Shown here: piece by piece, positions 1,998 through 15,614 of the stretch
Layout of the letters: every line of letters starts with the position of its first letter
How positions within the stretch are numbered: the stretch's first letter is position 1
DNA from: Promethearchaeota archaeon
GTDB taxonomy: Archaea; Asgardarchaeota; Lokiarchaeia; Sigynarchaeales; SOKP01
Direction: 5' to 3'
Assembly: GCA_014729315.1 (NCBI GenBank)
Contig: WJKD01000436.1
Coordinates: forward strand, 1-29,523
DNA: 29,523 nucleotides
Translations under genes and position numbers: made by a program
The notes under the pieces: model-generated
Told to the model about the DNA's origin: nothing
The model's input: the letters and a program-made list of their open reading frames with translations, nothing else
The model's database searches: none

Positions 1998-4913
1998 CTA
2001 ATAAACATTCTTAGGAAGTAGAATAATAAACTTGCTTCCTTTTGAATAGTCGTCATCTACTTTATTTTCTACCCAAATTTTTCCGTTTAAGCTGTCAACA
2101 ATTCTTTCGATTAATAAAAATCCTAAAAGAACTCCTCTCATATCTCTAACTTGGTTAGCTCCTCCTTTAAAAATTCTTTTTCTTTGATGCTCGCTGATAC
2201 CTGGACCGTTATCAATAAATTCAATCTTTAGATAATCTTCGCCATTTTTAATAATATCGCTTAGATAAATTTCTATTTTAATTTTGTAATCAGTATTGTA
2301 TTTTACTGAATTTATAATTAGATTATGGAATAATTCAAACAACCATACATTAGCTTTAACGATCTGTCTTTTTTTAGGAGCCTTGACTTTAATTCTAATT
2401 TTTTGATTTTTGAAGTTTTCTTCAATTTTGGTAATAACAGACTGTAGTACTTCCATTACTTCAACTGATTCTAATGGGGTTTTTGCCTCTCCCACCTCTG
2501 ATAATTTCTGAATTTTATAAACTAATTGCTTTCCTTCATTAGTTTGCTCTTTAATTATTTTGATTAAATTCTTAGCGTTTTCAGCTTCGAATAAGTTTCC
2601 TAAAGAATTGAGAAAAGCTAAGATAGTTTTAGCTGAATCTTGAATACGATATAATAAATCGTTTATATCGTGAACGAAAAGTTCTTTGTAAAAGTTCGCT
2701 TGGTCGTAAGCTTCGTGGAATTTTTCTTCACTTTCCTTTAAAGCCTCTTGGGCTTTCTCTTTTAACATTTCTGATTCTTTTTGTTCCGAAATGTCTTGAA
2801 TTAACAATTGTACGCACATTTCGTCGTTGAACCTTGCTTGCGAGGATTGTACATTTCCCCAGATGAAGGAACCATCCTTTTTTCTCAATTTTATATCTAA
2901 AAAAGTTAGTTTTTCACCTTTAACAACATTTTTTAAACATTCCAAAAGCATTAGAAGGTATTTGGGAGGAATAATCTCTAATCTTGCAAATTTTTTATTA
3001 ATAATGTCCTCCTTAGAATATCCCAACATAATTTCTAAGACCGGATTACAGTCTATAATGACTCCTTTTGAGTCAATTAAGATTATAAGCGTAGGTGAAT
3101 TTTTAAACAAAAGCCGATATTTCATTTCTGATTCTTTTAACTTTTCTTGCGCTTGTTTCCGTTCTGTAATATCTCTTAAAATACATTGAACCACGTTTTG
3201 CCCTCCCATTTTTACCTCGTTAGCATTAATTTCTACGGGAATTATTTTCTGGTTAGGATTTTTAATATTTACTTCAAGAAGCGAGGACTCTTCGTTTTCT
3301 ATTTTATTTAGGATTTTCCTAAGAAAATTCTCATTTGTAGCTTTTATCTCTATTTGCGAAGCGTGAAGGCTTATTATATCTTCAAGAGGTTGATTTAACA
3401 ATCTTTCCGCTTGTTCGTTAGCATCGACTATTATACCTGACTTTCTATCAATAATTATTATTGCGTCTCTGGCAGCTTTAAAAAGTGCTTGATATCTGAG
3501 TTCTGCAATACGCAAAGCTTGAATAGTCGGTTTTAAGTCTTTTAAATCTTTTATTACTTTCTTTTGTATTTTTTTTAGTATTTTTTTTGCATAAATCCTA
3601 TTACGGTAATCCTCCTTAAGGAGGGCAAGTTTTTCGAACACATAATTATGGAAATGATCGATTATTGCTCGTGGGATTTTTTCGTCATAAAAAATTACTA
3701 AAGATAGGGGTAGTGCTCCTCCTCGCACCGAGCTGTCCACTACATAATCAAAATAAATGGCAGCTTTTACCTTTAAGTGTGTAAAGGGTAAAATGACAGA
3801 GACTCTTTTGAAATCTTCTCCACCAAAAATAAATTGAGATATTGAAAAACAGCGAATTGCAATTACTTCCGGATCGTCAAACGCTTCATTTGGATGAAAA
3901 GATATGACCTTTACTCCGACCTCCTCATCCCAATGTGAAAAAATGATGGCTAAATCACTCTTAGGTTTTGGAAAAATCTGTTCAGAAATTTGGGTAGAAA
4001 ACCAATTAAATGCTTCTTGAATTCCTTCATCCTTTAAAGCACTCGTTAAAAAGCATCTTATAGGTCGTTCTCCTAGCTTATTGATCCTAAAATTTTTTAT
4101 TAAATCTTCGATGTTAGGCTTTTCTAAATCAATTTTATTAAACAAGATAAGTAAAGGTAGTTTGCTCATGTTAGGCATCAGTGCGATATTATGAAGAATT
4201 TCCCGGGCTGAATCGTAATTTTCGGTATCTGCAACATCGACTACAAAGATCAAACCATCTTGATTTTTCAAATAGGGTTTCCATAGTTCTCGAAATTTAA
4301 GTTGACCCGGGGTGTCATATACTACTAATGAAATATTATTGACAAGAACTCTCGAAATATCAATACTGGTAGTAGGTAAGGAAGGGCTAGAGATACCCTT
4401 TCTTCTCGTTTTAATTATTGTAGTCTTTCCTGCTTGGGATAAACCATAGATTAAAATTTTAGCATCTTTCCTGTCGTAGATCACGCTTTCCTTCGGAAAG
4501 GATTCGTAAAATGTCTGGAATAATGATTTAATTTTATTTAATTTTAATTGGTGAGTCTCTTGATCAGCAGAATCTGGATAAAAGGCTTCACCAGCATTAT
4601 CTATTTTCTTGAATTCCTTCTCGAAGCCTTCCAATAATTCCTTGGATAAGTCAAAATTAATATTGCTATTAATATCAATTAAAATTGAAATTAAGAGTAA
4701 TTCTCGATTACCCCTCGCGTATTTGCTGGGTATTTCAAAAATAAGATTGGCGCTTTTAAACCCTCCAAAAATATGAACAAAGAAACCTTCCTCATATAAA
4801 TCCATTAAGGATGTTATTTGATCAATTTCGTCTTCTACAATTGACTCTGGAGCCTTCAAAAATATCCTAGGACCGTACTGGGCGTTGAAATGGCTTAAAA
4901 TAAGGACTTTCAA
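1998..4913 (-). CDS. Arf-like GTPase fused to longin-like, PAS-PAS and histidine kinase domains
   Basis: This 971-residue cytoplasmic-looking protein has no evident membrane segment. Residues 1-105 form a profilin/longin-like pattern (beta-beta-alpha-beta-beta-beta-alpha). Residues 151-310 are an Arf-like GTPase with G1 GLSQAGKTT (157-165), DTPGQ (200-204, Gln at the Arf catalytic position), NKID (259-262) and TSAL (290-293). Residues 318-430 repeat a longin-like pattern. Two PAS domains follow (about 468-590 and 592-715), then a kinase module with phosphoacceptor candidate H748 in LFVHDI, N-box residues N864 and N868, and G1 box DNGPGI (901-906). The start is TTG 4913, with GAGGG and a 7-base gap before it. 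I infer that GTP state, possibly set at a membrane or by a partner binding the longin-like parts, gates or is gated by sensory histidine phosphorylation. No receiver protein is nearby. It lies 266 bases downstream of its paralogue. Confidence 0.9.
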   Translation of the reverse strand: MKVLILSHFNAQYGPRIFLKAPESIVEDEIDQITSLMDLYEEGFFVHIFGGFKSANLIFEIPSKYARGNRELLLISILIDINSNINFDLSKELLEGFEKEFKKIDNAGEAFYPDSADQETHQLKLNKIKSLFQTFYESFPKESVIYDRKDAKILIYGLSQAGKTTIIKTRRKGISSPSLPTTSIDISRVLVNNISLVVYDTPGQLKFRELWKPYLKNQDGLIFVVDVADTENYDSAREILHNIALMPNMSKLPLLILFNKIDLEKPNIEDLIKNFRINKLGERPIRCFLTSALKDEGIQEAFNWFSTQISEQIFPKPKSDLAIIFSHWDEEVGVKVISFHPNEAFDDPEVIAIRCFSISQFIFGGEDFKRVSVILPFTHLKVKAAIYFDYVVDSSVRGGALPLSLVIFYDEKIPRAIIDHFHNYVFEKLALLKEDYRNRIYAKKILKKIQKKVIKDLKDLKPTIQALRIAELRYQALFKAARDAIIIIDRKSGIIVDANEQAERLLNQPLEDIISLHASQIEIKATNENFLRKILNKIENEESSLLEVNIKNPNQKIIPVEINANEVKMGGQNVVQCILRDITERKQAQEKLKESEMKYRLLFKNSPTLIILIDSKGVIIDCNPVLEIMLGYSKEDIINKKFARLEIIPPKYLLMLLECLKNVVKGEKLTFLDIKLRKKDGSFIWGNVQSSQARFNDEMCVQLLIQDISEQKESEMLKEKAQEALKESEEKFHEAYDQANFYKELFVHDINDLLYRIQDSAKTILAFLNSLGNLFEAENAKNLIKIIKEQTNEGKQLVYKIQKLSEVGEAKTPLESVEVMEVLQSVITKIEENFKNQKIRIKVKAPKKRQIVKANVWLFELFHNLIINSVKYNTDYKIKIEIYLSDIIKNGEDYLKIEFIDNGPGISEHQRKRIFKGGANQVRDMRGVLLGFLLIERIVDSLNGKIWVENKVDDDYSKGSKFIILLPKNVY

Positions 4914-4920
4914 TTAAGAT

Positions 4921-4925
4921 CCCTC
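4921..4925 (-). promoter_or_regulatory. Ribosome binding site GAGGG fixing the TTG start
   Basis: GAGGG lies 7 bases before the TTG at 4913 and supports that start for the 971-residue kinase. The same GAGGGAT word precedes the upstream paralogue, which makes the pair useful for aligning their starts. Confidence 0.75.
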
Positions 4926-5179
4926 AGTTCGTATTATATAATTCTTAAATTGATTATTTCAATTTTATAATTATTCCTTTTCATCTTATCTCTAAATCTT
5001 ATAAAATAAATGAATCATTTCTCGAAAAATAGTTCCCATACAATCTCGTTCTACTTAAATTTCTAATAGTTAATCTAAACTCCGAATTTATGATAATATA
5101 AATCTTATTTAAAGTTATCTAAAACCCGTTTTAGCCCTATTAGATCGTAGTACAAATTTTTTGTATAATCTCTTAAGAA
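4926..5179. other. AT-rich intergenic spacer between the two GTPase-kinase genes
   Basis: This stretch has no reading frame that looks like a gene. It is strongly AT-rich and contains several TATA-like runs on the minus strand. It probably holds the downstream paralogue's own promoter and the terminator of the upstream one, so the two genes need not share one transcript. Confidence 0.4.
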
Positions 5180-8161
5180 TTAAACAACTAAATAAATTTT
5201 ATATCTTCCATCTTCTAAATATAATTGTCCTGCACATAATTCTAATATACGTTCTACTAAAGCAAGCCTTAAAAGGATACCTATATTTCCAAATTCTATT
5301 ATAAAATGAGACTCCAAATCTTTTTCTTCACGCTCCCACTCCTTACGATTCTGATCAGCTTTCTCTAAAATAATTTGTAATCCTGGTTTATCATTTTTCC
5401 TAATTTTAGTAATTTCTATTTTAATTTTTTTTAATTCTTTATTCTCAAAATTTAATAATATAAAGAACAAATTACGAAAAACTAATCTCAAACTTTTACT
5501 AAATTGATATTCGTTTTGCGATTGATCAATAATTTCAATCTGCATATTAATATAAGGATAGATAGAATTGTAGTCTTCTTTTGCTTTTTGTATAAGTTCG
5601 GCTATTGGAAGTTTCTCATTTGAAATATTTCTAACAGTCAAATTTGTCAATTTCTTCTCAATCTTAATTAGATCTTTTGCACATTCAATTTGTTTATTAA
5701 CTGCGTTCAGTAACATCTTTTTATTTCGTTTCATCTCATAATTTTCAACAGAATTAAAATTTGAGTTTACAAAACTGCCTAATAATTTCCATAATTTTTT
5801 CATATCTGTAGTAAATAACTCATTGTAGTAAGAAATGCGATCTAATTCTTGATGGAATTCTTCTTTATTTTCTTGTAAAGTCTTCTGGAAAAAAAATTTA
5901 TCGAACGCATTAGATATAAATTCTAAACAAGTTTTTAACATCAATAAAAGATAATTATTCTGTTCCTCGGGAATTGAAACGTTATCAATACAGATAAATC
6001 CTCTAACAATCTCGTTAATTTTTATGGGAAATAATAAACGAGTTGTTAATCCTTCCTCGGATTTAAAAACATCATGAGCGTCAATAGCACTTTCGCTAGA
6101 TTGAAAAATGATCTTTCCTTTTGTGATTTCTTCTATTTCTAAAGTGATTAGCTCCGTTTTCATTTCTTTATCAATTTGATGGTAAATTTGCCCATTTTGA
6201 GACCAGCTATATTTTAAATTAACGAAGTCTTTCTTATTACAGAAAAAATAAACATTAATTCTTTTTGCTTTAAATTCTAGTCCTATATCGATTAATGTCT
6301 GTCGAATTAGTTTATCAAAACCCTCTTTATTAATAACCAAAAAACGGGAAGATATTTTAGATATTAATTTTTCTAATTCAAGTCTACGCTTTAAAAACAA
6401 TTCCATTTTCTTTCGTTGAGTTACATTCCTTATAATCAACATAGTCATCATCCTGTTGCCTATTTGGACTTTACTAGCGCTAATTTCTAGTGGAATTTCT
6501 TTGCATTTTGAGTGTTTTAGAACAGTTTCTATAGTTTCACCGTTCAAGTTGTCATTTGCAATAATCTCGGAGAGATTACCATCCTTATTCTTAATCTTTA
6601 ATTGTGTTAAATCTAATCCGATTATGTCTTCTATCGATCTCGTCAATAGCTTTTCTGCTTGAGGGTTTGCATCAAGAATTAAACCAGAATCAGTATCAAT
6701 AATAATTATAGCCTCTTGCGCAAACTTGAACAGAGTTCGATACTGTAATTCGGTTGAATTAAGGTATTGAAATGTATATTTTAATTCTCTTAATTTTGAG
6801 GTGATAATATCTACAATTTGCTGTAAATCTTCTTCAACCGATTTTCCGTTTAGATAATATGTCTTTAAGGTTTTTAACTTCTTAAGGATAAAAAGGTTAA
6901 ATTGTTCGATTAAGGCGATTGGTATCTTATCTTTATAAAGTAGCATAAGCGCAACTGGTATTGGTTCTTCTAATAAGGTATCTCTTTTCATATAGTCTAC
7001 GTATATTGCTAATTTAGCCTTCAAACTAATCATAGGCAAGATAATGGAAGACTTGTTGTATTTCTTGTCGTTAAATAGGATTTGAGCCTTAGAAAAACAT
7101 TGAACCGCAACAGATTGAATATCTTTAAAATTTCGCTTCGGTGTCGCCCCTATGATTTTGAGACCAATGTTTTCGTCCCAGCGGGCAAAAATCAATCCAA
7201 CATCGCTTTTTGGTTTTGGTGAAATTTTTTCTGATAATTTGAGCGCTAACCAATTAAACGCCTCGTCAATATTTTTTCTCCTAATTCCGCTCGTAAAAAA
7301 GTACTTGAATGGTCTATCATTAAATCTGTCTAATTTAAGAACATTTACTAACTCTTCAACAGCTGGTTTACCTTGATCCACTTTATTGAATAGGATAAGT
7401 AGAGGTAAATCCCGCATTTCGGGTAAAAAAGCAATTTTATGTAATAAATCGCGAGCATCAGGAAATTTTATTCTGTCGTGAATGTCAAGTACAAACACTA
7501 AGGCGTCTTGGCCTTTAAGATACGGAACCCATAAATCCATAAACTTCAATTGACCCGGAGTATCAGTTGTTAAAAGTGAGACATTGTTTACCAAGATTCT
7601 GGAAATGTCCACATTAATAGTTGGTAGAATATTTTTATAAAGAGATTTTCGTCGAGATTTAATAATTGTAGTCTTGCCGGCTAAACTTAATCCGAAAAAA
7701 AGGATTTTAGCTTCGGTGTGTTCAATAGTTATGTGTTCAATTGAAAATGATTTAAAAAACGAGTCGAAAAGCCTATTTATCTCTTCAAACTTCTCCTTAC
7801 TACCTTCAAAAACTTGAGACTTTAGGTAGAACGCTTTGTAAGCGTCGTTTACCTTTTTTAATTCGTCAGCAAAATTTTTTAATAAATCTTGAGACAAATC
7901 AAAATTAACTTTCTTATCATTCTCGAAAAGGGCGGAAATCATCAGTCGTTCTTTCTGATTTCTGCTATACTCGCTACGAATCTTGAAAAGAAGGTTGATA
8001 CTCGTGAAGTTTTTAAATAAATGAACAAAAAATCCATCGTTATAAATGTCCATAAGATATGGTATCTGTTTTAAAAGAGCATTATCTAAATTGGATGGAT
8101 TTTTTAGAATGACTTTCGGCCCGACGAAAAACTCGTAATAACTTAATGCTAAAACCTTTAT
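5180..8161 (-). CDS. Arf-like GTPase fused to longin-like, PAS, GAF and degenerate histidine kinase domains; apparent AUA start
   Basis: This is a paralogue of the next gene downstream. Counting from ATA 8161 it has 993 residues, and its GTPase G1 box GLSLAGKTT falls at 157-165, the same position as in the sister protein. DTPGQ, NKVD and TSG are all present, so the GTPase looks competent. A second longin-like domain (about 320-435), one PAS (about 471-584) and a GAF-like region (about 590-750) follow. The kinase module has decayed: the sister's LFVHDI is LFTTDM here, so the phosphoacceptor His is Thr (T785). The second N-box Asn is Ile and the DxGxG box is missing. The first ATG is at 8053, but the frame continues upstream with KVLALS, matching KVLILS of the sister. 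That upstream part has no ATG, GTG or TTG before a TGA just upstream. I infer a kinase-dead regulatory partner. Confidence 0.88.
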   Translation of the reverse strand: MKVLALSYYEFFVGPKVILKNPSNLDNALLKQIPYLMDIYNDGFFVHLFKNFTSINLLFKIRSEYSRNQKERLMISALFENDKKVNFDLSQDLLKNFADELKKVNDAYKAFYLKSQVFEGSKEKFEEINRLFDSFFKSFSIEHITIEHTEAKILFFGLSLAGKTTIIKSRRKSLYKNILPTINVDISRILVNNVSLLTTDTPGQLKFMDLWVPYLKGQDALVFVLDIHDRIKFPDARDLLHKIAFLPEMRDLPLLILFNKVDQGKPAVEELVNVLKLDRFNDRPFKYFFTSGIRRKNIDEAFNWLALKLSEKISPKPKSDVGLIFARWDENIGLKIIGATPKRNFKDIQSVAVQCFSKAQILFNDKKYNKSSIILPMISLKAKLAIYVDYMKRDTLLEEPIPVALMLLYKDKIPIALIEQFNLFILKKLKTLKTYYLNGKSVEEDLQQIVDIITSKLRELKYTFQYLNSTELQYRTLFKFAQEAIIIIDTDSGLILDANPQAEKLLTRSIEDIIGLDLTQLKIKNKDGNLSEIIANDNLNGETIETVLKHSKCKEIPLEISASKVQIGNRMMTMLIIRNVTQRKKMELFLKRRLELEKLISKISSRFLVINKEGFDKLIRQTLIDIGLEFKAKRINVYFFCNKKDFVNLKYSWSQNGQIYHQIDKEMKTELITLEIEEITKGKIIFQSSESAIDAHDVFKSEEGLTTRLLFPIKINEIVRGFICIDNVSIPEEQNNYLLLMLKTCLEFISNAFDKFFFQKTLQENKEEFHQELDRISYYNELFTTDMKKLWKLLGSFVNSNFNSVENYEMKRNKKMLLNAVNKQIECAKDLIKIEKKLTNLTVRNISNEKLPIAELIQKAKEDYNSIYPYINMQIEIIDQSQNEYQFSKSLRLVFRNLFFILLNFENKELKKIKIEITKIRKNDKPGLQIILEKADQNRKEWEREEKDLESHFIIEFGNIGILLRLALVERILELCAGQLYLEDGRYKIYLVV

Positions 8162-8324: not shown

Positions 8325-9011
8325 TTAATTCAGAATCTCTCCATCTTCCATTTTAATGATTCTGTCGCAACAAGTCGATTCAATCAATCGATCGTCGTGA
8401 GTAGCGATTAAAATAGTGGTGGCTCTCTCGTCTGCGATCTCTCGAAAGTAGTTTCCAATTATTTCACCGTTTTCCGAATCTAAATTTCCAGTGGGTTCGT
8501 CAGCAAATATCATTTTTGGATCGTTTATTAATGCTCGGGCAATTGCCACACGCTGTCTTTCGCCCCCACTCAATTCTTTTGGAAGATGATTTAATCGGTG
8601 TCCCATTTGAAGCATTTTTAATATCTCCTCGCATTTTTTTTTATAACCATTCTTGTTGATTTTTCCGATTTTACACATTAACTCAACATTCTGGAGCACT
8701 GATAACGACTTCACTAAATTAAACGACTGAAAAATGAATCCGATCGAATTTCTTCGAGCTTGTGTCATTAGTTTATGTTTCGTTTTTTGATTGTAAGTGG
8801 TATTTTCAAAGTTAATCTTTCCCTCAGTTGGATGTAGCAATAAACCCATAACAGATAAGAGTGTAGTCTTTCCAGCTCCGCTTGGTCCCATCAATAGAGC
8901 AACCTCTCCTTCATGCATTCTGAGATTTGCATCCTTCAGAGCTTCTACTTTGACTCCGTTTAATCCATAAGTTTTGGACACATTTTTAAGAGACATTATA
9001 ACATTATTCAT
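8325..9011 (-). CDS. ABC transporter ATPase (LolD/MacB type)
   Basis: This 228-residue ATP-binding subunit powers an FtsX/MacB-family membrane complex. Walker A GPSGAGKT is at 42-49, the Q-loop Gln at 95, the signature LSGGE at 147-151, Walker B with DE at 171-172, and the switch His at 205. The sequence EPTGNLD after Walker B is typical of the LolD/MacB branch. ATG 9011 follows AGAGGT by 10 bases. Its permease partners are probably the two FtsX-type genes at 12.6-15.6 kb. They are not adjacent, but they carry the same upstream DNA element. With no outer membrane expected in an archaeon, the complex may work by mechanotransmission or by moving lipids or peptides across the cytoplasmic membrane. 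The cargo cannot be told from the sequence. Confidence 0.95.
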   Translation of the reverse strand: MNNVIMSLKNVSKTYGLNGVKVEALKDANLRMHEGEVALLMGPSGAGKTTLLSVMGLLLHPTEGKINFENTTYNQKTKHKLMTQARRNSIGFIFQSFNLVKSLSVLQNVELMCKIGKINKNGYKKKCEEILKMLQMGHRLNHLPKELSGGERQRVAIARALINDPKMIFADEPTGNLDSENGEIIGNYFREIADERATTILIATHDDRLIESTCCDRIIKMEDGEILN

Positions 9012-9072
9012 TTTTACATTACCTCTTAAGTGTTTAGTATTATGTAGAACAAAGCGGATAAATATAAATCTT

Positions 9073-9096
9073 TTATAGAGTCCAATTTTAGAAAAA
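9073..9096 (-). promoter_or_regulatory. Shared upstream element, copy A (before ABC ATPase)
   Basis: On the minus strand this reads TTTTTCTAAAATTGGA followed by CTCTATAA. It lies about 62 bases before the ATPase ATG and just ahead of a TATA-like TTATATTT (9061-9068). Near-identical copies stand before both permease genes. I read it as an operator or activator site next to the core promoter. Confidence 0.6.
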
Positions 9097-9186
9097 GATC
9101 CTAAATAAAACAGCTAAAATTAATGTGATTGGAATTAGTATTTCGTAAGAAATGATAATAAAATCAAAAAAAAAATTATTTATACC

Positions 9187-11037
9187 TTAAATATTTAATT
9201 TTTCCACTATTTCTTGTTTAGGAACACCCGTTTTCCAATCCCATCCAACTTGTTCGTAGAAATTTTTGAGATTATCTTCGAGGGATAGCTCAATGTTCAT
9301 CACCGCACCGCTTTTCAATGTTTTACTTACAATTTTTGGTAATTTATCGTCTTTTCTGCTAATACCTAGTTTACAATTTATTATTCGTTTTAACTGATTT
9401 CCCCGTTCTCCAGCTTTTAATGCACCCCTTTTCTTCCCTAGACTTTTAAAACCTGTTGATGCCTCCAATAATCGTGCTAATTGCGTTTGTTGAATATGAG
9501 AGAAATTACATATTACTGCGGAGTCCCATAAATTAGTTAGATTCCAATATAATGCGAGTCCTTTCTCTTTCCCATTAGCCGTAAATCTATCTCCTGTTTT
9601 AACCCCTGGGATTTTAGCAGTGTCGCCTTCGATATTAAAGATGTCGGGTTTTTCGTGACTTGCCCCTACATTACAAATCATGTACGCAAGTGCTTGTAAC
9701 GCATACGCGCGAGGGTCGTGCATTGGGACTTCAAGACCCTTAACATGAGCCGCTAATTCGGGATCTACATCAAGAATCTCTGCCATTCTTTTTGTGCCTT
9801 CCGCAAGAACATCTCCGATTCCTTCTCTATTTATAGTTTTCTCTAATAACTTAATTACAACTTCTGAGTTTCCGAATTTAAGCTCTTCGTATTTGAGATC
9901 TTTTAGTAATGGTGTGATTTTTTCTGAAGCTAGTCCTTGATCAGCTAAATACAACAAAAAAGCGATGCTAACTCCCGCAGAAATAGTGTCAACGCTTTCT
10001 AAATTACATAAATGATTGCATTCTAAAATTGGGTCCCAATCTAAAATGTCGCACAATGGTCCGAAAGCAGCCGCAGTTTCGTATTCTGGGCCGTCTATTT
10101 CAATCTCTTCGCCATTCTTTTCCATAATTGTCGTTCTCCCACAAGCAACAGTGCATCCAGCACAGTTATAATTAAGAACGGGATATTTCTCTTTTAATGC
10201 TCTTCCGGTCAGATATTCCGCTTTGAAGTCGGTGGATGTAAAGTATCTGTGAGGGACATCGCCCAATACCATTCCCATATCCATATAGCATAAGGTTCCG
10301 TAATGGTTAAAGAAATTTAAACCAAAATTCTGGCTCATACCCCGTCGAATAGTTTCTACAACATCTTTTATTTTTTGAGAGTCCGCATATTCGATTTTAT
10401 TTCTTCCTCTAATCGCTATTGCTTTTAATTTCTTATCACCCATGATAGCACCTAAACCACATCTACCAGCGGCTCTACCCTCATCGTTAATTATGCATCC
10501 ATATTTAACGAGATTTTCTCCTCCCTTTCCTATACACGCAATCCTAACTTTCTCATCTCCGAGTCGTTGGCGGATAATTTCCACAGTTGATCTTGTATCT
10601 TTACCCCAAATATCTTGCGCATCCTCAATTTCGATATTTGTATCATTTATTACTAATATTTTGGGTTGTTCAGCTTTCCCTGTAATTATAATAGCGTCAA
10701 ATCCACTCTTTCTTAAAGCAACGGGAAAATAACCTCCTGAGGTAGATTCACCCCATATTCCGGTCAAAGGAGAAATTGCAGTCACGCAATATCTGCTGCT
10801 AGAGGGCACCATCGAGGCAGTTAAGGGTCCAGTAGAGAAAATTAGCGGATTAATCGATTCAAAGGGATTTTCTTTTAATTTTCTGTAATCTTCGTCCGTG
10901 AGTATCTCGTCGGTTAATTTTGCTGATAAACCGGCTCCGCCAACGAATCTTTCTGCTATATCTTCGCTTAAATCTTTAATCTCTATCGTTTCCTTACGCA
11001 AGTCAACATAAACTATTTTTCCATTATAACCATACAT
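9187..11037 (-). CDS. Aldehyde ferredoxin oxidoreductase (tungsten enzyme)
   Basis: This 616-residue protein has the full length of the AOR family. These enzymes hold a tungsto-bispterin cofactor and one [4Fe-4S] cluster, and oxidise aldehydes to carboxylic acids with ferredoxin, reversibly. The N-terminal part (YNGKIVYVDL, then ERFVGGAGL) is diagnostic. Cluster ligands are C292, C295 and C299 in CAGCTVAC, plus C510 in AVICNF. The RCGLGAIMG stretch near 193-200 belongs to the pterin-binding region. ATG 11037 follows AGAGGT by 8 bases. The gene starts 12 bases after the iron alcohol dehydrogenase stops, so the two form an operon. Together they could interconvert alcohol, aldehyde and acid. Whether they oxidise alcohols or dispose of reductant by reducing acids is not shown. 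Confidence 0.95.
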   Translation of the reverse strand: MYGYNGKIVYVDLRKETIEIKDLSEDIAERFVGGAGLSAKLTDEILTDEDYRKLKENPFESINPLIFSTGPLTASMVPSSSRYCVTAISPLTGIWGESTSGGYFPVALRKSGFDAIIITGKAEQPKILVINDTNIEIEDAQDIWGKDTRSTVEIIRQRLGDEKVRIACIGKGGENLVKYGCIINDEGRAAGRCGLGAIMGDKKLKAIAIRGRNKIEYADSQKIKDVVETIRRGMSQNFGLNFFNHYGTLCYMDMGMVLGDVPHRYFTSTDFKAEYLTGRALKEKYPVLNYNCAGCTVACGRTTIMEKNGEEIEIDGPEYETAAAFGPLCDILDWDPILECNHLCNLESVDTISAGVSIAFLLYLADQGLASEKITPLLKDLKYEELKFGNSEVVIKLLEKTINREGIGDVLAEGTKRMAEILDVDPELAAHVKGLEVPMHDPRAYALQALAYMICNVGASHEKPDIFNIEGDTAKIPGVKTGDRFTANGKEKGLALYWNLTNLWDSAVICNFSHIQQTQLARLLEASTGFKSLGKKRGALKAGERGNQLKRIINCKLGISRKDDKLPKIVSKTLKSGAVMNIELSLEDNLKNFYEQVGWDWKTGVPKQEIVEKLNI

Positions 11038-11049
11038 TATTTTTACCTC

Positions 11050-12399
11050 TTAGAATTTATATAAGTTAATCAAATCCTCCATTTTGTTTTCCCACGCAAT
11101 TTCCATTATTCTCCGTACATTTTCTTCGGTGAACGGTCTGCTGGAATATAAACTACAATTATCCGTATGAGCTAAATCAGTCAGTAAATCGAGCTTCTCT
11201 TCAAACTCCTCTCTTGATATTTTTGGTCGATCTAGTTCTGATATTGATTTTGGAGCACCAATCTTATCCATAAATTTTTTTAAATTCGTTATTAATCCCT
11301 TTAGGATATACTCGTCGGACTTATTAGCAAGTTCGTAAATCACTTCGTGTCGGGGTTTATTACTTAATTCAACGGCAAAAACTTCGGCAAGTTTGTGAAA
11401 TCGGTCTGTGACTTTTGATTGATAAGCAATGGATGCCGCAGTAAAGATTCCTACTGAGATTCCGTGATGGACGTGAAATAAAGCACCAAAAGAATGACCA
11501 AGAGCATGTTCAATTCCTGCAGCACTGGTATTGATAAATCCTACACCCGCGAGATAAGATCCCATTTGCATTTTTTCCCTCGCTTCCATATCGTCTCCTC
11601 GCTCTACAGCCCTAGGAAGATATTGTAAAATTAACTCAATTCCTTTTATGTTCATTGCGTCTGTAAATGGCGAACTACCGATTAGAACATAAGCCCCCAC
11701 AGCATGAGCCAATGCGTCCATTCCTGTGCCCATCGTCAGCCATTGAGGCATTGTTTTTACGAAATCGGGATGCAAAACAACAAAGTCGGGACAGAATTCG
11801 TATAATGCCACAGCCGCTTTCACTGGAGGCTCTCTTGTATCGTCGTAGATCATAGCGTTAAAGGATCCTTCCGCACCAGTTCCACTGGTTGTGGGAATCG
11901 CTGCTAGGATGTCCACTTTCTTACGCAGTCCTAAATAGGACGGAGGCATCATCTGATTAACGTTAATTTCGGGTTTTTCGTAATACAAAAGTATTAACTT
12001 TGACATGTCGATTGCTGATCCGCCTCCCACTGCGATAAATACTTTGGGTTTAAATTCTTTACAGATATCGATTGCCTTGATTATTTTTGATTTAGGAACT
12101 TCAGGTAGTACCTCATCAAAAATCCGGCTGTCTATATCTCGTTTATCTTTTAGTGTCTTCGCAACCCGTTCACCAAACTTCCTTAAATCTTGATCCACAA
12201 TAATTAAAACTCGCTTTTCGTCGTCGTTAAGATAAGCACCGAGGTGTATTGTAAAGTCGGTGAGACTATTAGTTCCCGAGAAGACAGTTTTCGGTGTAGT
12301 TATCGGTAAATGATAGCCCTTCATTGCGTTTGAAGCGCTTTTAACATATAGATTTCGAAGTGCTGGGTCTTCGTACCAAATTTGTTCTCGTTTTGACAA
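11050..12399 (-). CDS. Iron-containing alcohol dehydrogenase
   Basis: This protein of about 449 residues belongs to the iron-dependent (group III) alcohol dehydrogenases, cytoplasmic NAD(P)H enzymes that interconvert alcohols and aldehydes. GGGSAID binds the cofactor, and PTTSGTGAEGS is the conserved Gly-rich turn. The metal ligands are expected in MDALAHA (Asp and His) and in EHALGHSFGA and FHVHHG (two His), and all are present. A GTG at 12408 opens the frame, but it lies inside AAGGTGAT (12404-12411). That word is a good ribosome binding site for TTG 12399 with about 7 bases between, so I prefer TTG (MSKREQIW). The aldehyde ferredoxin oxidoreductase follows 12 bases later, so the product aldehyde is probably handed to it. 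A TATA-like run lies about 20-30 bases upstream. Confidence 0.93.
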   Translation of the reverse strand: MSKREQIWYEDPALRNLYVKSASNAMKGYHLPITTPKTVFSGTNSLTDFTIHLGAYLNDDEKRVLIIVDQDLRKFGERVAKTLKDKRDIDSRIFDEVLPEVPKSKIIKAIDICKEFKPKVFIAVGGGSAIDMSKLILLYYEKPEINVNQMMPPSYLGLRKKVDILAAIPTTSGTGAEGSFNAMIYDDTREPPVKAAVALYEFCPDFVVLHPDFVKTMPQWLTMGTGMDALAHAVGAYVLIGSSPFTDAMNIKGIELILQYLPRAVERGDDMEAREKMQMGSYLAGVGFINTSAAGIEHALGHSFGALFHVHHGISVGIFTAASIAYQSKVTDRFHKLAEVFAVELSNKPRHEVIYELANKSDEYILKGLITNLKKFMDKIGAPKSISELDRPKISREEFEEKLDLLTDLAHTDNCSLYSSRPFTEENVRRIMEIAWENKMEDLINLYKF

Positions 12400-12588
12400 A
12401 TTTATCACCTTACGATTTATTTATATTAGATTCTTTTTAAGTTTTTCAAATGTTTGAAATTATCTAAGATCTTATAAAATTTGATAGAAGAGATACGCAC
12501 TTGCTATATGATTCTTGGGTCTAATAGTAATAAGAACGCAGATTATAAACTCAATAAGCTAAATAATTAAAAAAGAAGGATAAAAAAA

Positions 12589-13725
12589 TTAACCTTGAAA
12601 TACGACGGCTGGATCAATTTTATGAACCTTTCTAATTGCTATTAAAGAACAAAACACAGATGTGATGATAGTTAATCCGTAAAACAGAAATGTCGTTGGC
12701 AAATGAATTATAATGGGTATAACGGCGTTCTGCGAAAATAGTCCAAGCACATATGTTAGTAATGTTGCTAACCAAAAACTAACCGAGACAAGGATTAATA
12801 CTTGACCAATCAACATTTTATTAAGAAATCCTTTGCTTGCTCCAATCGCTTTTAGCGTTCCAAATTCAGGGATTTTTTCTTGAACCGTCTGATAAGTCGA
12901 TATTGATATAATGATCATTCCAACGAAAAATCCCATAAACACGAGGATATATATACTACCTCCCATCCCACCCTCGTTTACGACAAAATCGTACGAATTC
13001 TGACGCAGTTCATCGCTACTTAAAATCTCCATGTCTTTTAGCTGATACACATCTTTGACTTCTTCAATCGAAGCTTCAAGGTCGTCTATTGACGCATCTT
13101 CGGCTAATTTTATCGCGTATGTATTACTCCAATTTCCTGCCCATGGAGCTGTTTTCCTCATCGTTTCGAGAGATCCCCAAATGAATGGAGTGTTCATCCA
13201 CCGTGAGTTTTTACAAAACCCTACGATTTCGACTTCAACATCTCCTATAGTAAGTTTATCTCCCATTTTGGGAGTTTCCTCCATTATGTCTTTCAAGGAT
13301 ACATCAACAATGACGGTATTAGCGTCTTTAAGGTTATCCACGTTGCCTTTGACGATGTCCCATGGTTCAACTTCTTCACTGGATAATTCGAACCCAAGGA
13401 TCATACACTCGACTATTTCTTCGTCAGTTTCAATTCTAGAGTAATCGTAAATAAGTCTATTTATCTCCTCTATTTCCTTAAGATTCTTAATCTTATCGTA
13501 GATCTCGTCATCTAAATATCCACTCCCGAAAACTTCTTCGTTATCTTCGTCTCGAATCCATACATCGTGATCCCATTTGTCGATTATACTCGAACATCTC
13601 GTTAGAACGCCGTTCCACATTCCAGCGCTATATTGAATGAGAAATAAACTCACCGTAAGCCCAACAATTATTAAAACTAGTTTTAGTTTCTTGTGAAATA
13701 AATCATTTATTGTTAAATTAACCAA
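12589..13725 (-). CDS. FtsX/MacB-type ABC transporter permease (first copy)
   Basis: The 378-residue protein has one transmembrane helix near 14-36, a large soluble region of about 215 residues (MacB periplasmic-core-like, outside the membrane), then three helices at about 260-284, 306-332 and 340-366. This four-helix layout is that of FtsX/LolC/MacB permeases. The KIPEFGTLKAIGASK stretch between the second and third helices is the conserved coupling loop that contacts the ATPase. The start is TTG 13725, after a weak GGTTGAT. It is a paralogue of the permease at 14.5-15.6 kb: both open with VNLTI and end with IRKVHK.DP. I infer that the two form a heterodimer served by the ATPase at 8.3-9.0 kb. 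Confidence 0.92.
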   Translation of the reverse strand: MVNLTINDLFHKKLKLVLIIVGLTVSLFLIQYSAGMWNGVLTRCSSIIDKWDHDVWIRDEDNEEVFGSGYLDDEIYDKIKNLKEIEEINRLIYDYSRIETDEEIVECMILGFELSSEEVEPWDIVKGNVDNLKDANTVIVDVSLKDIMEETPKMGDKLTIGDVEVEIVGFCKNSRWMNTPFIWGSLETMRKTAPWAGNWSNTYAIKLAEDASIDDLEASIEEVKDVYQLKDMEILSSDELRQNSYDFVVNEGGMGGSIYILVFMGFFVGMIIISISTYQTVQEKIPEFGTLKAIGASKGFLNKMLIGQVLILVSVSFWLATLLTYVLGLFSQNAVIPIIIHLPTTFLFYGLTIITSVFCSLIAIRKVHKIDPAVVFQG

Positions 13726-13770
13726 TTTTAATCAACCATCTACTTTTTGTAATTTTTAATATATTATTCT

Positions 13771-13797
13771 TTTAGAGCCCAATTTTTGTGAAAATTG
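13771..13797 (-). promoter_or_regulatory. Shared upstream element, copy B (before first permease)
   Basis: On the minus strand this reads CAATTTTCACAAAAATTGGG followed by CTCTAAA. The first part is a perfect dyad, CAATTTT and AAAATTG around CACA. A TATA-like AATATATT (13758-13765) follows, and the TTG start is 45 bases downstream. It matches copies A and C. Confidence 0.6.
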
Positions 13798-13913
13798 CTT
13801 GAAACGATTCTTTAAAATAGGTCAATATCTACTAAAAACTCACATTTTTGGAATGGTAAAATTTAATGACTTTTTCATATTCCATCGATTATTACATCTT
13901 CTAGCAAATAATC

Positions 13914-14426
13914 ATGAAGGAAAACTATTCGAAAGAGCAATATTTTTTTGATGAGCTTACAATTTCCAAGTTAAGCAAATTTTTGAATAATTTTGAAAAT
14001 CCTTGTTTATTATGCGCTCCTATGCTTGGAAGAGAAGTTAACAAGAATCATCAAAAATGTATTATACTAGATATCGACGCGAGGTTTTCTGATGTCATTG
14101 GATTTCGATATTACGATATAAATAATCCACATTGGATCGCAAGAAATTTTGATATTATTTTGTGCGATCCCCCTTTTTTTCAATTTAGGTTCTCTTCTTT
14201 ATTTAAAGCGATTGCAATGTTAAGTAATTATGATTTTGATCAAAAACTCATGATTAGCTACTTAACGAGAAGAAAGGATCGATTCTTGAGAATTTTTGAC
14301 TCTTTTCGTTTGGTTTCAACTGGGTATTATCCAACTTATGTTAGCGTAGTAAATCGAGGAAAAAACCAAATTGAGTTTTTTGCTAATCTTTCACCGCGAG
14401 AAATTGCGCTATTAAATGAAATTTAA
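13914..14426 (+). CDS. EEF1AKMT1/N6AMT2-like methyltransferase (PF10237 family)
   Basis: The 170-residue protein resembles the family that includes human EEF1AKMT1 and yeast Efm5, which methylate a lysine of translation elongation factor eEF1A (earlier named N6-adenine methyltransferase 2). I see QYFFDE near residue 9 (family QFWYSDE), a CAPMLGR stretch where the family has SAPS, YYDINNP near 66-72 (human YDYNNP), and the catalytic-site motif DPPF at 85-88. The family lacks the usual Gly-rich SAM motif, as here. The assignment rests on my memory of the human sequence, not on a search. The likely substrate is aEF1A or another translation protein, but this is inference. It is the only plus-strand gene between the two permeases, and nothing links it to transport. 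Confidence 0.8.
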   Translation: MKENYSKEQYFFDELTISKLSKFLNNFENPCLLCAPMLGREVNKNHQKCIILDIDARFSDVIGFRYYDINNPHWIARNFDIILCDPPFFQFRFSSLFKAIAMLSNYDFDQKLMISYLTRRKDRFLRIFDSFRLVSTGYYPTYVSVVNRGKNQIEFFANLSPREIALLNEI

Positions 14427-14483
14427 TGTTCCTGATTTTGGTTAAAAACACAATACTAAAAAAGAGAAAAAGAAAGATTTTCT

Positions 14484-15614
14484 TTAAGATCTAAAAATAA
14501 TCCCAGGGTCGGTTTTGTGAACTTTTCTAATTGAGAATAGGGAACATAGTATCCCAAGACCTATAGAAATACCGTACGCCACGAATGTCCAGAAGATGTT
14601 TAAAATTATTGGAAATGTGGAAAACTGAGATAAAATCGGAGAGATTAATAGCGCTGTAATAGTAGAAAATACAAAACTTAAGGTCACAATTATAGATGTC
14701 TGTCCTATTAGAATATTATTTACATACCTTTTATCCGCTCCTAGTGCTTTCAAGGAAACCAATTCAGGAAGTTTGTCAGAAACCGATTGATACATCGAAA
14801 TAGAAATGATAACCATCGCGACCGTAAATCCAATTACTGCTAAAATCCCTAGCGAAGCAGCTACACCAAAATCATTCAAAAGATAATCCCTTACGCTTTC
14901 TTTCATCTTTTCCGCAGAAACTATTTTTATATCGTCGTCGAATTCTTCTAAATCGTCTTTTAAATCGTCAATAGTATATCCTTCATTGAGGGCAAGTCCA
15001 ATATATATACTCTCGTTTTCCAAATGTAAAAGATCTTTAGCTCGATCGACATGAGTCCATATACCGGGATTTCCAAATTTTCTAAAATTTTCACAAAATC
15101 CGACAATTTTTAATTCCTCGTCAAAATCTCCGACTTTAATCTTATCACCAACAGTTAAGTCCGGAAAAAATTTATCTCTTAACAAGACATCGACTATGAT
15201 TGTGCTATTTTTCTTTAAATCGTTTAAATTGCCTTCGACTAAGTCCCAGGGTTCTAATAAATCGCTCTTAGGATCGTAGCCCAAGATGAAAGAACCGGTA
15301 TCTTCATCCTTATGATTTATGTTGACATAACCATCGAATACTTGATCTGCTTTCTTAACGCTCTTTGCTTCTTTAACTTCCTTAAATATGTCATCTGACA
15401 CACTCCCGCTGATCATAATGTTTGGTACATTCTTTTGAATTACATAACAATCGTATTCGCTATTATCAACTACTAAAGTTGCTTGTTCCAAAGTTCCGTT
15501 TACCATTCCGAAACTAACATGGACCATTAATAAGCTCATGCTTAATCCCAGAATCACCAAGATCAACCTAGTTGGATAATGTAAAAGATCCTTTATTGTT
15601 AAATTGACCATCAT
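14484..15614 (-). CDS. FtsX/MacB-type ABC transporter permease (second copy)
   Basis: The 376-residue paralogue of the first permease has the same layout: one N-terminal helix (about 12-35), a soluble region with many acidic residues, and three C-terminal helices. The coupling loop reads KLPELVSLKALGADK. The start is ATG 15614, with ATG 15611 also possible, and no strong ribosome binding site precedes it. The soluble region differs from the first copy more than the membrane parts do. That suits a heterodimer whose two outer domains have split roles. The gene has its own promoter element (copy C). Confidence 0.92.
   Translation of the reverse strand: MMVNLTIKDLLHYPTRLILVILGLSMSLLMVHVSFGMVNGTLEQATLVVDNSEYDCYVIQKNVPNIMISGSVSDDIFKEVKEAKSVKKADQVFDGYVNINHKDEDTGSFILGYDPKSDLLEPWDLVEGNLNDLKKNSTIIVDVLLRDKFFPDLTVGDKIKVGDFDEELKIVGFCENFRKFGNPGIWTHVDRAKDLLHLENESIYIGLALNEGYTIDDLKDDLEEFDDDIKIVSAEKMKESVRDYLLNDFGVAASLGILAVIGFTVAMVIISISMYQSVSDKLPELVSLKALGADKRYVNNILIGQTSIIVTLSFVFSTITALLISPILSQFSTFPIILNIFWTFVAYGISIGLGILCSLFSIRKVHKTDPGIIFRS

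Follow-up and report, generated by a model that had tools for sequence, protein, structure and literature searches.

An Arf-type GTPase fused to PAS/GAF sensors and a histidine-kinase fold that has mostly lost its catalytic motifs in Asgard archaea

The window analysed here, the whole stretch of 29,523 nucleotides of contig WJKD01000436.1 (assembly GCA_014729315.1, Promethearchaeota archaeon), contains two neighbouring genes with complete reading frames on the minus strand, both within positions 1,998-8,161. All coordinates of these genes and their domains refer to that strand. P0001 (1998..4913) starts with TTG and encodes 971 residues in the order longin-like, Arf-type GTPase, longin-like, PAS, PAS, DHp and CA, with its kinase motifs kept. 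P0002 (5180..8161, 993 residues) has the order longin-like, Arf-type GTPase, longin-like, PAS, GAF fold, DHp-like and CA-like, with its kinase motifs lost. The first-pass annotation had described them as tandem paralogues that join an Arf-like GTPase, PAS or GAF sensors and a kinase in one polypeptide, and Pfam matches, AlphaFold2 (AF2) models and relatives bore this out, for the kinase of P0002 as a fold. We consider it somewhat more likely than not that in these proteins a PAS/GAF-sensing dimer gates the Arf-like switch and that the kinase is mostly reduced to a conserved pseudokinase.

The 5' end of P0002 was inspected for a start codon. The first ATG, GTG or TTG is found only from position 8053, and 36 conserved residues precede the first ATG. 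The alignment to the family begins at an ATA codon at 8161, and a GAGGG ends six bases earlier. The start therefore seems to be this ATA, or an ATT or ATA just before it, and since the family alignment reaches 8161 the gene end given in the first-pass annotation is correct.

The GTPase domain covers residues 147-313 of P0001 (3975..4475) and residues 144-313 of P0002 (7223..7732), and matched Pfam Arf with E-values of 2.6e-35 and 4.6e-29, respectively. The G1-G5 boxes are complete in both proteins and include, exactly as had been noted, GLSQAGKTT, DTPGQ, NKID and TSA in P0001 and GLSLAGKTT, DTPGQ, NKVD and TSG in P0002. Arf was the best-scoring domain family, the fold is that of Arf, and Arf1 was the top match in the PDB (E 2e-27), far beyond chance. 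Where Arf1 has DVGGQ, the fusion family reads DxPG(Q/K) at G3 and adds a long C-terminal sensor. The domain also differs from the Asgard ArfR and eukaryotic Arf proteins in PMC12554972 (PDB 8oum, 8ouk), since it lies internally behind about 145 residues and has no free N-terminal amphipathic helix, the feature that defines Arf/ArfR. We therefore name it Arf-type and do not call it an ArfR member; an internal substitute for this helix is possible. In a GTPase tree, the fork that places the fusion GTPase with Arf had a support of 85/47, and the Rag sequences formed their own group (100/98, with a long-branch warning attached). No Gtr1_RagA domain was listed by Pfam for P0001 or P0002 at E<=1, and some relatives matched it weakly, e.g. 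P0124 (4e-10) and L022 (5e-7).

In the kinase half of P0001, the DHp helices (2484..2750) carry the phosphoacceptor His748 (codon 2670-2672) and the CA domain (2007..2471) matched HATPase_c with 1.3e-16. The N-box Asn868 and the G1 box DNGPG, a full DxGxG, are retained; HisKA was unmatched in Pfam at E<=1. The G2 loop has two of three glycines, and the missing middle one is present in six aligned stand-alone PAS kinases, which are the best kinase matches to P0001 in the genome of one relative and are 34-42% identical to its tail. All six keep the His, the Asn, the G1 Asp, the second G1 Gly and the three G2 glycines, and two of them have Ala in place of the first G1 Gly; a seventh control locus (L002, from a bacterium) gave no match. 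By its motifs, the P0001 kinase may still be active. In P0002, Thr785 (codon 5807-5809) stands at the His position of the DHp-like helices (5642..5866), and the CA-like domain (5186..5614) has neither the N-box Asn, replaced by Ile, nor the DxG. Its G1 box reads Lys-x-Asp-x-Asn instead of DxGxG, so that the G1 Asp is replaced by Lys, and HATPase_c was unmatched in Pfam at E<=1. Both tails are predicted by AF2 to fold. The histidine-kinase module that had been assigned to both genes thus holds for both as a fold, but its catalytic residues are gone from P0002, which is by motif a pseudokinase.

How widely each half is conserved was followed in an alignment of 121 proteins, from which P0003, the window's own copy of P0001, was left out. 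In all 120 rows that have the domain, the GTPase residues Gly162 and Lys163 of G1, Asp200, Pro202 and Gly203 of G3, and Asn259 and Lys260 of G4 are invariant. At the phosphoacceptor column 748, Asn is found in 68 proteins and His in only 28, followed by Gln (12), Ser (3), Thr, Tyr and Lys (2 each), Phe (1) and three gaps; the N-box Asn868 is retained in 28/121. When 11 partial or odd rows (P0034, P0038, P0090, P0113 and P0116-P0122) were left out, 14 of the 110 near-complete members had His, Asn and Asp together, and only P0001, P0004, P0083, P0098, P0109 and P0114 had His, Asn and the DxGxG. The kinase-bearing loci taken from genomes (L001 and L023-L037) retain the His in two of 16, L025 and L037. 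The claim that small-GTPase switching is generally coupled to histidine phosphorelay in this family is therefore unsupported, because the kinase residues are mostly lost while the GTPase residues are invariant.

A tree of the 110 near-complete members was calculated by a quick method from residues 1-465, which lie outside the kinase columns, and rooted at the midpoint. One branch (SH-aLRT 98) separated clade A with 34 rows, including P0001, from clade B with 76 rows, including P0002. All 14 members with His, Asn and Asp belong to clade A. In clade B the His is found in seven members and neither Asn868 nor Gly903 in any; the G1-box Asp901 is present in 75 of the 76. Clade A has the catalytic Gln of G3 (column 204) in 33 of its 34 members, clade B in 26 of 76. 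A linked loss of the kinase His and the GTPase Gln was unsupported, since seven independent pairs gave a mean of 0 changing the same way against 1.8 the opposite way. The starred branches of the tree force at least six changes of the His+Asn+Asp label, and such repeated motif loss could be expected if the tails were decaying passengers that are no longer under selection. Yet the frames are open, both tails of the window are predicted to fold and the mean pairwise identity within clade B is 0.62 for CA and 0.53 for DHp (0.76 for the GTPase). With the CA domain this similar the clade B tails appear conserved and not decaying, which makes unselected relics very improbable. Two clade B members had sub-threshold HATPase_c matches (2e-4 and 7e-4).

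The extent of the family was determined with the P0001 protein, for which the 7991 candidates sharing most words were scored, resulting in 193 matches. According to the precomputed Pfam column, 118 of the 120 matches listed contain Arf and PAS; the other two are P0003 and P0122, which is without Arf. The first eight matches from outside the window are 51-57% identical over 96-100% of P0001, and the named sources are metagenome-assembled Asgard genomes labelled as Promethe-, Loki-, Hod-, Hermod-, Heimdall-, Thor- or Odinarchaeota. The survey of Asgard genomes that had been proposed was done on 227 genomes from the phylum to which Lokiarchaeota LW40_45, the nearest relative with a name, belongs; that genome is one of the 227. 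At least 18 of them carry a match running through GTPase and PAS (from residue 83 or before to residue 594 or beyond), a lower bound since three candidates were scored per genome at E<=1e-60; among the 18, one is a 701-residue form with two PAS domains and no kinase (G093) and one is cut by a contig end (G138). The fusion family is widespread in Asgard metagenome-assembled genomes. Nothing was found in favour of an assembly artefact that joins separate GTPase and kinase genes, and since full-length relatives lie on other contigs and in other genomes the chance of such a chimera is practically nil. Thus, neither a missing GTPase, a missing kinase domain nor a mis-join, the three outcomes that had been named as fatal to the fusion, was encountered. 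Some annotation pipelines call the proteins 'PAS domain S-box-containing protein/small GTP-binding protein'; the labels 'histidine kinase' and 'PAS domain S-box protein' conceal the GTPase and the lost catalysis alike.

Between GTPase and kinase, P0001 has two PAS domains found by Pfam and AF2, PAS 1 at residues 466-582 (3168..3518) and PAS 2 at residues 594-708 (2790..3134). In P0002 a PAS domain found in the same way (residues 466-582, 6416..6766) is followed by a GAF fold (residues 608-745, 5927..6340). Pfam detected no GAF domain in P0002; the assignment comes from the strand and helix order of the AF2 model and from a phmmer match of 40.2 bits to a GAF-containing relative (E 2e-12 in a database of 120 proteins). 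GAF was rejected as a hallmark of clade B because it also occurs in part of clade A. The GTPase is flanked on both sides by domains that the AF2 models of both proteins predict with the longin order E-E-H-E-E-E-H: a longin-like domain 1 (P0001 residues 1-112, 4578..4913; P0002 7826..8161) and a longin/roadblock-like domain 2 at residues 320-436 of each (3606..3956 and 6854..7204). No significant Pfam or PDB longin sequence match was found for the flanks, the queries A3, A4 and A5 included, and Pfam Longin was over the cut-off in none of four genomes searched. The fold-search lists were uninformative, their best 50 rows being filled by Arf with no longin structure among them. An internal duplication of the two domains was not shown by hhalign (probability 1.1% and 5.7%). 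In the relative P0012, Folliculin was matched below the threshold (E 7e-4). One Lokiarchaeota genome has a frame of about 473 residues (G001:C3:122660-123370) in which a weak Folliculin match directly precedes an Arf-region match, and in four further genomes frames of 471-492 residues also match Folliculin. The N-terminal longin-like domain is also shared by L042, L043, L044 and L045, where it is free-standing (about 150-170 residues) or part of longer proteins; none has a Pfam longin match, and L045 weakly matches the Afi1 docking domain (E 0.5).

Shorter relatives were found with residues 1-450 as the query, and their lengths are those of the database entries. Longin-Arf forms have about 312-323 residues, one of which (P0155) is source-labelled Bathyarchaeota, longin-Arf-longin forms about 483-499, and kinase-free forms with two PAS domains 699-706. 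This graded series up to the PAS plus kinase forms suggests that domains were added stepwise behind the GTPase core, the direction being our inference. The G-boxes are intact in the kinase-free L022 (844 residues, three PAS) and P0140 (two PAS). P0124-P0127 (623-641 residues) continue the longin-Arf-longin core with a Cys-rich CxxC...CxxC tail. A gene like that of P0127 lies at L038:8459-10351; P0127 also matches RING below the threshold (E 0.028), which is reminiscent of the Arf-RING protein TRIM23.

That the kinase half has, by its motifs, become a conserved pseudokinase in most members points to the Arf switch as the working output. The conserved core would then be the Arf-type GTPase with its predicted longin-like flanks, which may serve as its built-in partner and dimer platform; PAS, GAF and the DHp/CA fold are joined behind it. 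Changes in the PAS and GAF domains would travel through long helices (P0001 residues 439-480, 583-604 and 709-770) to the GTPase and control how it exchanges or hydrolyses nucleotide, and once bound to GTP it would recruit effectors. In most members, the kinase by motif is not a phosphotransferase and perhaps acts as a folded pseudokinase in dimerisation or in the sensing of nucleotides or partners. For its origin we see about an even chance that a eukaryote-like Arf switch captured a bacterial-type sensor kinase, which has since become a pseudokinase that senses for the GTPase and gates it, with phosphorelay mostly abandoned and persisting in a few members such as P0001 as a fossil or hybrid.

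Several observations speak against the GTPase as output. The GTPase is N-terminal to PAS, which is the position of a kinase's input. In clade B, column 204 holds Lys in 44, Gln in 26, Tyr in 4 and His in 2 of 76 rows, with the other G-box residues kept, and since the catalytic Gln is so often substituted these switches may hydrolyse GTP poorly. With Asp901 kept in 75/76, their CA domains may still bind nucleotide. Three of five PAS-only, kinase-free forms (P0153, P0157 and L039, 3027-5132) have eroded G-boxes, opposite to the trend in the main family. In addition, many clade B rows are closely related, so that the counts are not independent events, and taking the top matches as stand-alone control kinases biases the control towards retained motifs. 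The domain order, the Gln loss in clade B and the eroded PAS-only forms make the GTPase as input the chief competing account, most of all for P0001: the Arf nucleotide state would set the autophosphorylation of the DHp His and the transfer to a receiver encoded elsewhere. This would fit the order of GTPase, PAS, DHp and CA, the near-complete motifs of P0001, the 14 members that keep His, Asn and Asp, and the 18 receiver-domain matches in the genome of one relative (G001). It is impossible for the 96 of 110 members that lack at least one of these three residues, the P0001 G2 loop is incomplete compared with the stand-alone kinases, and no receiver domain was found (E<=1e-5) in the 20 scanned of the 23 other open reading frames of at least 80 codons in the window, in agreement with the first-pass annotation. 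As an account of the family we regard a GTPase-gated kinase as unlikely, with phosphorelay plausible, from the motifs, in P0001 and a few relatives.

The relationship of the two genes was then examined. P0002 has a GAF domain that P0001 lacks, it falls in the other clade, and its tail scored 67.6 bits to P0039 versus 27.8 to P0001. The GAF domain and the tail nearer to other members favour old side-by-side paralogues, which are likely but not proven, over a recent tandem duplication. On the other side, the end branch of P0002 is the longest in the tree (its placement is marked as uncertain), the PAS of P0001 is almost the best match to that of P0002 (103.5 versus 104.0 bits) and an approximately unbiased test with residues 1-465 did not reject sisterhood (p 0.132). 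The near-complete motifs of P0001 beside the lost ones of P0002 might tentatively point to an unequal pair. Divergent paralogues in tandem could also form a heterodimer by way of their longin/roadblock-like domains, in the manner of Gtr1/Gtr2 and RagA/C, with an active sensing arm in one and a pseudo arm in the other, and work with Rag GTPases; in G001 (Lokiarchaeota) both PAS-fused GTPase genes adjoin Gtr1/RagA GTPases (L001 3.2e-29; L022 7.1e-25 and 6.8e-23). The Rag genes lie at L001:6683-7654 and, two in a row, at L022:10904-12933. Such a heterodimer is improbable, since no second fusion gene adjoins the fusion in the 16 kinase-bearing loci or at L022 (several of these contigs are short), Rag neighbours were seen by sequence clustering only at two loci of one genome, and the Rag sequences group apart in the GTPase tree.

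No group is closer to the ancestor of complex cells than the Asgard archaea. Prokaryotes typically read their environment by two-component sensing, and eukaryotes typically control their membranes by small-GTPase switching. An Asgard family that holds both in one chain, with the switch kept and the phosphorelay mostly retired, gives a concrete, testable picture of how environmental sensing could have become wired to Arf-type switches before eukaryotes; if gating of the GTPase by PAS and GAF is true, it would be a direct signalling route from these sensors to a small GTPase. Pseudo-histidine kinases of the DivL type, in which Tyr replaces the His, likewise use the fold without ordinary phosphotransfer, but DivL has no GTPase, and the loss seen in the fusion family characterises a broad archaeal clade. 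LRRK2 and other Roco proteins also have GTPase and kinase in one chain, there Roc-COR with a Ser/Thr kinase in place of Arf-type with a histidine kinase.

Among published systems, the N-terminal half matches the MK-D1 Asgard proteins with a GTPase fused between longin and roadblock domains, often annotated as Arf (PMC10933270); the main text of that paper does not contain 'kinase', and further domains appear in its figure as '?' alone. The PAS-DHp-CA order is common to two-component PAS kinases (PMC10343646, PMC5847659), but the fusion family has the GTPase and most of its members are without catalytic residues. 'GTPase' and 'Arf' are absent from the main texts of these two papers, an Asgard kinase survey and an archaeal census, respectively. 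In actinobacterial conservons and Rup neighbourhoods, a small GTPase works with a histidine kinase, and conservons add a roadblock protein; these are separate polypeptides, and the GTPases are MglA and Rup, not Arf (PMC4316618). The fusion had been put forward as an undescribed system. Its component parts are known, and the combination and its fate were not found in the open-licence PMC literature searched, within which they are new; the novelty is limited in that Vargova 2025 and Zhu 2025, on Arf origin and outside this literature, may mention multidomain forms.

Finally, the genomic surroundings were compared. No conserved operon partner was seen in 22 loci, where the commonest neighbour family, ABC-type ATPases, occurred in five and the next in three. 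Homoserine dehydrogenase and threonine synthase are encoded near the fusion in two genomes with different fusion types (L022:3315-8099 and L028:2328-4717). In the window, positions 8325-15614 encode an ABC ATPase and two MacB/FtsX-like permeases, and interspersed among these genes are those for an aldehyde ferredoxin oxidoreductase and an iron alcohol dehydrogenase.

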